This document shows positions 3,741 through 46,152 of a stretch of 64,000 bases of DNA, in pieces. Source of the DNA: an uncultured Leptolyngbyaceae cyanobacterium (GTDB taxonomy: Bacteria > Cyanobacteriota > Cyanobacteriia > Leptolyngbyales > Leptolyngbyaceae); the NCBI GenBank assembly GCA_938023035.1, contig CALIDI010000018.1, positions 124,001 through 188,000 of the forward strand. The letters run 5' to 3'. Below the pieces are notes generated by a model. The model had not been told where the DNA came from, did not search any database, and was given only the letters and a program-made list of their open reading frames with translations. The stretch's first letter is position 1; each line of letters starts with the position of its first letter. The translations under genes and the position numbers were made by a program.

Positions 3741-5279
3741 CTAAATGCAGAGTGGCTCGGACGTTTCTGATGCTTGAGTCTGATAAAAGCTCATCAACTC
3801 AGGAATTAGTTGGTTCAAGTTTCCAGCTCCCAAGAAGAGGGCAATGTCTCCTGGTTGAAGTAAGTGTTTCAGCCGTTCTGCCACCGATGCAAGCGTTGGC
3901 TCATAAACGACCTGAGGATGGTTTTGGGCAATGGCCTCGGCAAATTGCCGCCCCGTAACCGTTCCAGGGTTTAGCTCCCCAGCGCTGTAGATATCGGTTG
4001 TGAGCACAATATCAGCGCTACCAAAAGCGTTCGCAAATTCCTTTAGAAAGGTCTGGGTGCGGCTATAGCGGTGGGGTTGAAAGATAGCTACAACCCGTTT
4101 TCTGGCAGCTCCAGAACCAATAGTTTGCAATTTGGCCGCTGCTAACGTTACCTCGACTTCACTGGGGTGATGAGCATAATCATCGACAAATAGAATGCCG
4201 CCGTACTCACCTCGCTGTTCAAACCGCCGTCGCGCCCCTTCAAAGCGACCGAGAGCCTCCACAATAGTGACAAAATCGAGCTGGAGTAATCGGCCCACGG
4301 CAACCGCAGCTAGGGCGTTACTTAAATTATGTCGGCCCAGCAATCTCAGCTGTAGGGTGCCCAGTTGTTGGCCCCGTTCCCAAATTTGAGCGGTGGTGCC
4401 AGTGCCGGTATAGTGAATCTCATCGGCGACGTAATCGGCTTTTGAGGCAGGGTCAAGGCTATAGGTAATGGCAGGGCGCAAACGATCGCGAGCCGTGGCA
4501 CAATCAATGCTGCCGATCAACACCTGACACTGCTGGGCAAAAACCTGGAATGTCTCAACAACTTCATCCAAGTTACTGTAGTGGTCAGGGTGATCCAGCT
4601 CAATGTTGGTCACAATCCCAACCTCAGGCTGTAGCTTGACCAGAGAGCCATCCGATTCATCCGCTTCAGCAACCAGCCATTCGCCAGTGCCTGCCCAGGC
4701 ATTGCCTCCCCAGGCATTGACTTCACCCCCAACCACAATGGTAGGATCAATCCCCGCCTGCATCAGCATGTAACCAATCATGCTGCTAGTCGTTGTTTTA
4801 CCGTGGGTACCGGCGATCGCAATGCCGCGATACTCAGCCATCAGAGCGGCCAGTACATCAGAACGATGCAAAATAGGACAACCTAACTCGATCGCTGCCT
4901 GATATTCAGGATTTTCAGGATGAATCGCTGTTGAACAGACTACCTGTGGCAGGAGACAGCTTTGGTAAGCTCGCCCGGTTCGCGATCGCCCAGAAGGCTT
5001 CTCTGAGACAGGCGTTCCATTCGTTGCCCCACCAACAGCCGTAACCAAATCCCGTGAAATAGATTTTTTCTGAAAAAACTCTAAATTACTGGCGGCCTGA
5101 CTCCAGAAAATATGTACTCCTTCATCCTGTAGACGCTGAGTAATATGAGTTAAGCGCAGATCAGAACCAGAAACAGCTAAGCCTCGCCTTGCCAGAATAT
5201 AAGCAAGCGCTGACATTCCAATTCCACCAACTCCAATGAAATGAAGCGGTCTGCCATTAAAATCGACAGGATTGACCAT
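3741..5279 (-). CDS. murC: UDP-N-acetylmuramate--L-alanine ligase
   Basis: ATP-dependent ligase that adds L-alanine to UDP-MurNAc. Domain order is as expected: an N-terminal Rossmann fold with GVGGIGMSALA (16-26), the ATP loop GTHGKTTT (157-164), the HNLSNALAA central motif, and a C-terminal ligase domain with DDYAHHPSEV and FQPHRYSRT. The 512 residues are somewhat long because the variable loop between the N-terminal domain and LPQVVCSTAI (residues 70-109) is about 40 residues. This loop is partly encoded by repeat-like DNA with a HIP1 site. The ATG at 5279 has a strong GAGGAG ribosome-binding site five bases upstream. murB follows. Confidence 0.95.
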   Translation of the reverse strand: MVNPVDFNGRPLHFIGVGGIGMSALAYILARRGLAVSGSDLRLTHITQRLQDEGVHIFWSQAASNLEFFQKKSISRDLVTAVGGATNGTPVSEKPSGRSRTGRAYQSCLLPQVVCSTAIHPENPEYQAAIELGCPILHRSDVLAALMAEYRGIAIAGTHGKTTTSSMIGYMLMQAGIDPTIVVGGEVNAWGGNAWAGTGEWLVAEADESDGSLVKLQPEVGIVTNIELDHPDHYSNLDEVVETFQVFAQQCQVLIGSIDCATARDRLRPAITYSLDPASKADYVADEIHYTGTGTTAQIWERGQQLGTLQLRLLGRHNLSNALAAVAVGRLLQLDFVTIVEALGRFEGARRRFEQRGEYGGILFVDDYAHHPSEVEVTLAAAKLQTIGSGAARKRVVAIFQPHRYSRTQTFLKEFANAFGSADIVLTTDIYSAGELNPGTVTGRQFAEAIAQNHPQVVYEPTLASVAERLKHLLQPGDIALFLGAGNLNQLIPELMSFYQTQASETSEPLCI

Positions 5280-11028: not shown

Positions 11029-11240
11029 AAAACTTCCACAATTCCCTAGAGCTTTTATGATCCCCTCCATGCATCGTGGTACCGGCTTTCCTGAGAGCTC
11101 GAGCAGCGATGGAAGGGAGTGCTAGGCATCATCAAAAGAGGCCCCGACCAATTCTTTCACCAGCCAGATAGAAGACCGGTAACCTCGTCTATTTCACCGT
11201 TGAACTGGAATCGTCTTGATACGGCTCGTTCAAGCGACAT

Positions 11241-11531
11241 CTATAGTTCTTGCACTAGGACATAGGGCTGCACAATTAAGGCGTTGAATCGTTTGGCCCG
11301 ATTCTGCTGCCAGTTTGACAATTGGTCAGGGGAGGGTTTTTGAATTAGTGCCTCCGCAATCCAGCGCTGAACATAGATCACGTTATCATTGGCGATCGCC
11401 TCAGCTACATCAATCAAATTTAAGGCAGCACTAACAATAATGACCGAATCTCTTTTTGCGTGCGGTTCTAACCAGTCCCACTCGGCTTCATCAAGAGCTG
11501 CGACTAGCTGGCTTCTGAGTTCACTCATCAT
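11241..11531 (-). CDS. DUF2288 family protein
   Basis: Conserved small cytoplasmic protein of unknown function. The 96 residues fit DUF2288: an N-terminal helix with LVAALDEAEWDWLEPHAKRDSVI, then LIDVAEAIANDNV, a WIAEALIQKP turn and a C-terminal LSNWQQNRAKRFNALIVQPYVLVQE. There are no membrane segments and no cysteines. The second Met (11528) may be the real start. It lies 170 bases upstream of cobO on the same strand, but no functional link is known. Family assignment is from memory of the motif pattern. Confidence 0.75.
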   Translation of the reverse strand: MMSELRSQLVAALDEAEWDWLEPHAKRDSVIIVSAALNLIDVAEAIANDNVIYVQRWIAEALIQKPSPDQLSNWQQNRAKRFNALIVQPYVLVQEL

Positions 11532-12236
11532 CGCTCAATCCGCGCTTAAACGACATTTGAAGGAATTGCCAAGAGGCTCTGACAACGATGGCGAGATGCC
11601 AGCGTAACCCATCAACCGTGCCTAGCTAAACCCATTGACTTAGAGGTGCAAATCCTACCATAGATCTGCCCTCTCTGACGAGCGATACTGGCCGAGGACT
11701 TTTAACGGTGGAATCTAGCCAGTTGGTGATTTTAGCCCAACCTGATTTATAGTGGATTTGCTGACATTACTTGAGATCTGTTTGCTGGTCTACACTGCGG
11801 GGTTAAATAGATATTCAGTCAGTTGGGGTAAAAGTAACACCGAATCAGCATATAAACTGACACGTAATTTTTTATAGAAGACTGATTTGGCCAGCGCTCT
11901 CATCCACTGTTCTGCATTGGTTGATTGTAGAAACCATCTATGACAAAAGCCGGCGGCTTTTGTCATAGATGGTCAAACTAGGTCTAACTCAAAGTCTAGG
12001 TCTCTTGGCAGGCTCAACGTTTGCTCTGGGGCAGGCCAGGGTTGGTCGCAGAGGCTTTGGTACGGTCATTCATCGTCTGAATTTAGATTCCTCAAAGTTT
12101 ATGATCCACTCTCTCAGCGAATGAACCTTGTCCTATACTCTGATTCTATGAACGGTATTTCAATCATGTTTGATTCATCAGAAAATAGGGCTGTTTTTTA
12201 ATTTTATAAAAAAATAAGGCTGCTTTGTTTAATTCT
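11532..12236. other. intergenic region upstream of cysteine desulfurase
   Basis: About 700 bases without a supported gene. The main feature is the 41-bp perfect palindrome at 11933-11973. The last 60 bases before the desulfurase start are very AT-rich and probably contain its promoter. Confidence 0.5.
11933..11973. repeat. perfect 41-bp palindrome
   Basis: Left arm 11933-11952 (ACCATCTATGACAAAAGCCG) is the exact reverse complement of right arm 11954-11973, around a single central G. Twenty perfect pairs with a one-base centre can form a cruciform or an RNA hairpin. There is no T-run on either strand, so it is not a standard terminator. It lies about 260 bases upstream of the cysteine desulfurase start. 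Confidence 0.95.
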
Positions 12237-13418
12237 ATGCAAATTTATCTAGACTATAGTGCAACAACACCGCCCCGATTAGAGGCGATTACGGCAATGC
12301 AGCAGGTGTTGGCTCACACTTGGGGGAATCCTTCGAGCGTACACCGCTGGGGAGAACGGGCAGCCCTGGTGTTAGAGCAGGCCAGGGCACAAGTGGCTCA
12401 ATTGATTAACGCAGCACCTGAGTCGATTGTATTGACATCGGGGGGGACGGAGGCTGACAATTTGGCGATTATGGGGGTGGCACGTCAGTACTCAACCCCC
12501 CAGCATGTGGTTATTTCTAGTGTGGAGCACTCTGCGATCGCCCGTCCGGTTGAGCAATTAGAGCGCTGGGGGTGGCAGGTGACCCGGCTACCGGTGGATC
12601 GCAGTGGGCGGGTTAACCCTGCTGATTTACAAGCGGCTCTGCAACCCAACACGGTGCTGATTTCAGTGATCTACGGTCAAAGCGAAGTGGGAACGTTACA
12701 GCCCATTGAAGCTTTGGGGGCGATCGCTCGCTACCATGGAGCCTTGTTTCACACCGATGCGGTGCAGGTTGCAGGTCGGCTACCTATTGAAGTGAAGACA
12801 TTACCCGTTGATCTGCTGTCTCTCTCCAGCCACAAGCTCTATGGCCCCCAAGGGGCTGGAGCACTGTACGTGCGACCGGGGGTTTCCCTGATGCCTCTAC
12901 TGGGGGGAGGCGGGCAAGAAATGGGGTTGCGTTCGGGTACTCAGGCTTTACCAGCGATCGCCGGTTTTGGGGCCGCTGCCGCCTGTGCCTTACAAGAACT
13001 TGCCGATGAGTCTCGCCGGTTAATCGCCCTTCGCGATCGCCTATTTGACTTGCTGGCAGATGTTCCAGGGTTAGTGCCTACGGGCGATCGCTTGCATCGG
13101 TTGCCTCACCATGTCAGCTTCTGTTTAACCGAAGCCGATGGCATCCGGCTAAACGGTCGGGCGATTGTGCGACAGATGAACCTGGCAGGCATTGGCATTA
13201 GTTCAGGTTCGGCCTGTAGCAGCGGCACCCTCAACCCCAGCCCAATTTTATTGGCCATGGGTTATAGCGATCGCGTCGCTCGCACTGGCCTGCGCCTAAC
13301 GTTGGGTCGTGAAACGAGCCTCGCCGACATTGAGTGGACAGCTATGGTACTGAAGCAGATACTCGCGAGAATGATGCCCCCTGTTGCCGTATTACCCAAA
13401 GATCTAGGCAATTTCTAA
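12237..13418 (+). CDS. cysteine desulfurase (IscS/NifS family)
   Basis: PLP enzyme that removes sulfur from cysteine to form a persulfide for Fe-S clusters or thio-cofactors. From the ATG at 12237 (MQIYLDYSATTPP) the protein has 393 residues, typical of group I. The PLP lysine is in SSHKLYGPQG (Lys200), the cofactor loop in SGGTEADNL and HTDAVQ, and the catalytic cysteine in SSGSACSSG (Cys327) on a long mobile loop, as in IscS. No iscU, nifU or iscR is adjacent. The C-terminus after the conserved helix is short and poorly conserved. Cyanobacteria carry several paralogues, so the exact sulfur acceptor cannot be assigned. Confidence 0.93.
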   Translation: MQIYLDYSATTPPRLEAITAMQQVLAHTWGNPSSVHRWGERAALVLEQARAQVAQLINAAPESIVLTSGGTEADNLAIMGVARQYSTPQHVVISSVEHSAIARPVEQLERWGWQVTRLPVDRSGRVNPADLQAALQPNTVLISVIYGQSEVGTLQPIEALGAIARYHGALFHTDAVQVAGRLPIEVKTLPVDLLSLSSHKLYGPQGAGALYVRPGVSLMPLLGGGGQEMGLRSGTQALPAIAGFGAAAACALQELADESRRLIALRDRLFDLLADVPGLVPTGDRLHRLPHHVSFCLTEADGIRLNGRAIVRQMNLAGIGISSGSACSSGTLNPSPILLAMGYSDRVARTGLRLTLGRETSLADIEWTAMVLKQILARMMPPVAVLPKDLGNF

Positions 13419-27141: not shown

Positions 27142-27213
27142 AGCGGGTAACGCGATTCGAACGCGCGACATTCACCTTGGCAAGGTGACGCTCTACCACT
27201 GAGCTATACCCGC
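27142..27213 (-). tRNA. tRNA-Gly (anticodon GCC)
   Basis: On the minus strand the cloverleaf is complete. The acceptor is GCGGGTA with TACCCGC and discriminator T. The D arm is GCTC/GAGC, the anticodon arm TCACC-TTGCCAA-GGTGA, and the T arm GCGCG-TTCGAAT-CGCGT. CCA is not encoded. Anticodon GCC reads glycine GGC/GGU. Confidence 0.95.
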
Positions 27214-45756: not shown

Positions 45757-46152
45757 TCAGTACGAAGGAGAACGCAAGCCACCGCGCTGACTTGCACGAC
45801 GAGTCGGTGCTCGGTGCCCTGAGGAGTGGCTGCCACTCTGCGGTTCATCGTCGCGCGAACTCGCTGGACTACCGTATACATCTAAATGTGCAACATAGCC
45901 TGAAATCTGAGCCGCTGCACTCAAAATAGCGCGAATCGCTTGAATGTTACGCCCTCCCCGGCCAAATACTCGCCCTTTGTCATCAGCATCAAAGGCAAGC
46001 CTCACCCACACCTTGCGCCGACTCAGCGATAACTCGCAGTCAACCCGAATCGATTCGGGTTGCTCAAGAAACGGACGCACCAAAAAGGCAACTAGCTCCG
46101 CAAAATCTGGAACGTCTGAGTGGCTAGTAGGGTTGATCACGGGTTCAGGCAT
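45757..46152 (-). CDS. khpA: KH-domain RNA-binding protein
   Basis: Small RNA-binding protein of the KhpA family, regularly found after rpsP. From the ATG at 46152 ([10 protein letters not shown]) there are 131 residues. The start overlaps the rpsP stop by eight bases, so translation is probably coupled. The KH core has [21 protein letters not shown] and the [22 protein letters not shown] loop (GxxG). A C-terminal tail rich in Ser, Arg and Gly (about 95-131) is a low-complexity RNA-binding extension. The longer frame to 46215 lies inside rpsP and is rejected. Confidence 0.9.

Follow-up and report, generated by a model that had tools for sequence, protein, structure and literature searches.

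What is a perfect 41-bp palindrome doing upstream of two divergent genes in the genome of an uncultured Leptolyngbyaceae cyanobacterium, and how did it come to stand there? The locus lies in a 64-kb window, by which we mean the whole stretch of 64,000 nt that was analyzed. A preliminary description had reported the palindrome at 11933–11973 in a 700-bp spacer; the coordinates are exact, all 20 pairs match around a single G, and the arm that it quoted is correct as far as it goes, comprising the first 19 of the 20 nt. The spacer measures ~705 bp from the DUF2288 start at 11531 (minus strand) to the desulfurase ATG at 12237 (plus strand). This ATG was taken as the start because homologs align from there in tblastn; the list of open reading frames (ORFs) has 12225. 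The following features are referred to below.

11241–11531, minus strand: DUF2288 protein gene, left neighbor (Pfam PF10052, E = 1.2e-33)
11532–12236, no strand: divergent spacer of ~705 bp, a gene junction that none of the other genomes examined shares
11927–11930, plus strand: tetranucleotide GTAG, separated from the left arm by 2 nt, resembling the tag of GTAG-type REPs and possibly there by chance
11933–11952, plus strand: 20-nt left arm, 100% complementary to the right arm
11945–11961, no strand: inner A4-GCCGGCGGC-T4 core, which resembles a terminator on either strand but whose GC stem is short, judged from sequence and folding
11953, no strand: central unpaired base G between the arms
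11954–11973, plus strand: 20-nt right arm, the left arm’s perfect reverse complement
12237–13418, plus strand: right neighbor, encoding a cysteine desulfurase-like class V aminotransferase (Pfam PF00266, E = 6.6e-69)

Rarity and folding of the palindrome

The proposal that such a structure is extremely unlikely to arise by chance agrees with our estimates. With independent bases at 50.8% GC, perfect 20-bp arms around a 1-nt center are expected ~4e-6 times in the 4.75-Mb genome, and 20-bp perfect arms with any loop of 0–12 nt ~6e-5 times; real genomes contain more long palindromes than this model predicts. We surveyed 844 kb, roughly 18% of the genome, made up of the window and 39 further stretches of 20 kb each, for perfect hairpins whose arms reach 13 bp or more and whose loops do not exceed 12 nt. 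Four were found, the 41-bp palindrome being the longest. The second longest, with 19-bp arms, and a third are members of a repeated CTCCC/GGGAG type. The fourth lies 25 bp past a gene and is followed by a T-run, as would be expected of a normal terminator. For arms of at least 15 bp with up to two mismatches and a score filter, a mononucleotide-shuffled control gave 0 hairpins versus 3 in the real sequence.

Palindromes of the repeated CTCCCAA/TTGGGAG type were seen in the same genome at L179:2567–2605, L182:8672–8740, L185:2601, L187:16022 and L193:2129, one of them with 19-bp perfect arms. The second longest perfect hairpin of the window itself is a 22-bp perfect palindrome, CAACCCGAATCGATTCGGGTTG, at 46041–46062.

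The strand of the palindrome is predicted to form a stem of 19 bp closed by a GGC triloop, at −30.0 kcal/mol. If transcribed, it would give the long RNA hairpin that was suggested earlier for the region upstream of the desulfurase gene, but it ends 263 nt before the ATG. A larger structured RNA was considered and rejected because, without the palindrome, the spacer folds no more strongly than usual (z = −0.97 without it, −3.70 with it; 25 shuffles). At the gathering threshold, Rfam recognized only a tRNA in the window (27142–27213), with no family covering the palindrome, and a consensus scan of 11200–12400 returned neither a terminator nor a sigma-70-type promoter. None of four small spacer ORFs matched Pfam at E ≤ 1, and the 41-aa ORF at 11752–11877 had no plasmid match.

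Perfect symmetry in a draft assembly of 62 contigs might also reflect an assembly or amplification artifact. We regard this as very improbable: the palindrome is located ~136 kb into a 198.5-kb contig, and neither flank is an inverted copy of the other, whereas fold-back chimeras would have long inverted flanks.

The spacer as a gene junction

The palindrome lies upstream of both neighboring genes, 401 bp from the DUF2288 start and 263 bp from the desulfurase start. Among 28 cysteine desulfurase loci of relatives, none has DUF2288 within ~1.5 kb on either side, and in 12 of the 28 the desulfurase gene is directly preceded by a response regulator gene (~1.5 kb upstream per locus). The source genome has its copy of that response regulator on contig C20, with other sequence past the 3′ end; over 247 aa it shows 100% identity to its counterpart in a same-genus genome, and no desulfurase gene follows it within the 1.5 kb examined. 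From the absence of DUF2288 at the 28 loci, the regulator at 12 of them and its location on C20 in the source genome, we conclude that the spacer is a junction seen only here among the genomes examined.

The single same-genus genome examined has neither the palindrome nor this gene neighborhood. Beyond the coding start, the spacer showed no convincing similarity to the 28 cysteine desulfurase loci. The same applied to the DUF2288 loci, of which 29 were inspected from 40 relatives with DUF2288; one 21-nt piece matched at E = 0.054. The window as a whole contains 79 copies of GCGATCGC, the HIP1 site; these copies and the set of genes present point to a cyanobacterium.

Copy number and the origin of the dyad

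The genome-wide arm search that the preliminary description had named as a check was run with up to 3 mismatches and located the 20-nt arm at one place only, with no second copy. A 12-mer from the arm, ATGACAAAAGCC, was followed up as a possible genome repeat; it occurs exactly at one other place (C1:874–885) in an apparent coding frame, which was taken as chance. The core pattern is absent from the 387 other genomes of the class (1/388, the source genome), and a 35-mer with up to 3 mismatches likewise matched the source genome only (1/388). The full-dyad pattern had 0 matches in viral contigs, where the 14-mer CTATGACAAAAGCC was present in at least 120 stretches and is too short to inform. 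BLAST gave no match of the spacer to plasmids and, for a 76-bp core against phages and plasmids, only chance-level pieces (E 2–8; five phages and one plasmid). A limited search of publications on palindromic repeats and hairpins returned nothing about this locus. By itself, a single-copy palindrome is a minor observation, real but modest and mildly unusual.

Perfect twofold symmetry in a divergent spacer would suit an operator, a dyad bound by a dimeric or tetrameric regulator that controls one or both of the flanking genes, DUF2288 and cysteine desulfurase. A dimer-binding site was among the four readings that the preliminary description put forward without preferring any, next to a cruciform, the RNA hairpin and a mobile-element trace. 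We nevertheless consider an operator quite improbable. Within 3 mismatches the arm has no other site in the genome, none of the adjoining proteins that were checked is a transcription regulator and no similar dyad stands upstream of DUF2288 in the 29 relatives’ loci; moreover, operators seldom need 20 perfect bp per arm.

The palindrome could instead be a remnant or founding copy of a mobile palindromic element of the MITE or REP type, the other copies of which do not survive in the assembly. In REPs of the GTAG type, a GTAG tag adjoins the hairpin, as described in PMC3733652. Our locus is similar to such GTAG-tagged REPs with RAYT (Y1) transposases in having a ~40-bp spacer palindrome with GTAG beside one foot (11927–11930), which could be chance and is weak evidence. 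It differs from them in its single copy, where high copy number would be expected of a REP, in its perfect arms and in the lack of Y1_Tnp (PF01797) in the assembly: 0 matches were obtained in the source assembly (G000), which is 95.9% complete, versus presence in 4/4 other genomes searched. Inverted and direct repeats in the flanks were not above shuffle level, and the best joint score for a target-site duplication (TSD) and terminal inverted repeats (TIRs) around the palindrome was 13, compared with 14–17 in the top 15 of 60 shuffles. Without inverted terminal repeats, target duplication and Y1 transposase, the trace of a mobile element envisaged earlier is unsupported. Collapsed repeats could be missing because the assembly, in 62 contigs, is 95.9% complete; overall, we judge a mobile origin unlikely. 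A published cyanobacterial MITE, Nezha, is mentioned in PMC3733652.

Speaking for a mobile origin, 45-bp perfect palindromes of nearly equal size form the heart of high-copy, MITE-like elements in two sampled cyanobacterial relatives, G026 and G039. These repeats have 40 or more copies and conserved flanks, and those of G039 additionally have terminal inverted repeats and 8-bp target duplications, all of which the 41-bp palindrome lacks; the G026 element had no match in the source genome at E ≤ 1. In G026 (L216:7870–7953), the repeat extends over at least ~83 bp around its own 45-bp perfect palindrome, with 40 copies scored of 191 candidates. The G039 element (L250–L253, about 1500–1640) spans ~120 bp, ends on one side in a 45-bp perfect palindrome distinct from that of G026 and has at least 40 copies (40 places scored of 192 candidates). 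By eye, 4/4 copies examined terminate in GGCTCTTCTG/GGTTCTTCTG-type inverted repeats flanked by 8-bp duplications, similar to the ends of the ISL3 family.

Another possible origin is neutral: a small chance dyad may have been copied back on itself by fold-back or template switching during replication or repair, leaving a functionless by-product. The single copy with no relatives in the class, the bare ends lacking TIR and TSD and the location in a long spacer that is non-coding and marks a rearrangement junction are consistent with such an event, and spontaneous conversion of imperfect into perfect inverted repeats is cited in PMC6060812. We still hold this neutral origin to be somewhat unlikely, as the A4/T4 symmetry around a GC center is a terminator layout that random fold-back would not favor. 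Because the imperfect-to-perfect conversion has been described (PMC6060812, as cited there), perfect arms alone are no argument for selection. That selection maintains a lineage-specific single-copy dyad, as a cruciform or single-strand hairpin for a new protein, insulating the divergent promoters or as a recombination site that made the junction, seems highly doubtful to us.

Terminator-type layout and look-alike hairpins

Over neutral fold-back, a mobile trace, an operator and an artifact, we tentatively favor a bidirectional terminator-type hairpin that may have been stranded in the divergent spacer by rearrangement, with arms perfected by hairpin-templated repair. A GC core set between an A4 and a T4 tract would constitute such a hairpin, and the outer complementary sequence would lengthen its stem so that RNA transcribed from either strand could form the same structure. 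Hairpins of this kind would normally be set between the 3′ ends of two genes. Given the position between two gene starts at a rearrangement junction, we infer that the hairpin was probably stranded from a former 3′-end spacer when a rearrangement in the lineage made the junction. Alternatively, it may end unannotated short transcripts inside the 705-bp spacer. In support of the terminator-type reading we count the gene 3′ ends at which most of the look-alike hairpins described below are placed, a similar palindrome in the cyanobacterium G056, the lineage-specific junction and the ordinary folding of the rest of the spacer. Repair with one hairpin arm as the template for the other could have turned a near-palindrome into a perfect one, and a special function would not be needed.

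The absence of a following T-run had led the preliminary description to set the palindrome apart from usual terminators. This holds for the outer ends: the 8 bases past the full stem are CAAACTAG on the plus strand and TTCTACAA on the minus strand, neither with the T-run that directly follows the hairpin of an intrinsic terminator. What was overlooked are the internal A4/T4 tracts, as each 3′ arm contains a run of four T (11958–11961 on the plus strand and its mirror on the minus strand), 5 of the 8 bases right after GCCGGCGGC are T, and matching hairpins stand at gene 3′ ends elsewhere. Like bidirectional intrinsic (Rho-independent) terminators of convergent genes, the palindrome is a symmetric hairpin with A-tract, GC core and T-tract and a stem that is perfect on both strands. 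It differs from them in a GC core of only 3–4 bp, in a T-tract enclosed in a longer perfect stem and in its place between gene starts, theirs being between gene ends. The location in a divergent spacer, upstream of two gene starts, is the wrong place for a terminator and counts against the reading that we favor.

We scanned a collection of 84,980 species, each represented by one genome, for look-alikes with the 11-bp inner arm TGACAAAAGCC...GGCTTTTGTCA and a loop of up to 9 nt. Hairpins were detected at 10 places in ten other genomes of unrelated organisms. With gene contexts derived from ORF calling (≥80–90 aa) in place of annotation, six of the ten lie between converging gene ends and two directly past the 3′ end of a tandem gene, in a set enriched for terminators by design because the search pattern contains AAAAGCC/GGCTTTT. 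One further look-alike lies inside an ORF, one is unplaced with no gene called to its right, and none (0/10) occupies a divergent spacer. In five of the ten, the stem is perfect well past the T-tract, with a total hairpin of 35–43 nt and the same architecture as the 41-bp palindrome; the longest, 43 nt, is from Erwinia. The GC core of our palindrome is weak by comparison, with a predicted −1.3 kcal/mol for GCCGGCGGC alone (−5.6 kcal/mol including the A/T tracts) versus −4.9 to −10.4 kcal/mol in nine of the ten look-alikes and 0.0 in the tenth (L205).

How cyanobacteria end most of their transcripts without Rho is described as unsettled in PMC13289151. According to the same paper, ends resembling canonical terminators account for only 22% of transcription units in Synechococcus elongatus, and strong structure is present at 46% (75/163) of the defined ends that lack U-tracts. 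Over half of these defined U-tract-less ends are not highly structured (PMC13289151); we counted this and the 22% share against the terminator-type reading. The question of how cyanobacterial transcripts end lends itself to tests on hairpins that are long and perfect but have no U-tract outside the stem, and the present junction offers a simple case in which a 3′-end element may be stranded between two gene starts by rearrangement.

Two individual hairpins from other genomes deserve mention. The Erwinia hairpin (L204, around 4440–4485) is perfect over its 43 nt and stands between converging genes; its arm, ACCGTCTGACAAAAGCC, resembles ACCATCTATGACAAAAGCC of our palindrome, a likeness that is probably a coincidence. 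In another cyanobacterium of the same class (G056, L169:2639–2684), a perfect palindrome of 46 bp, again single-copy and with the A4...T4 arrangement, begins within the final codons of a cysteine desulfurase gene and extends across its stop codon.
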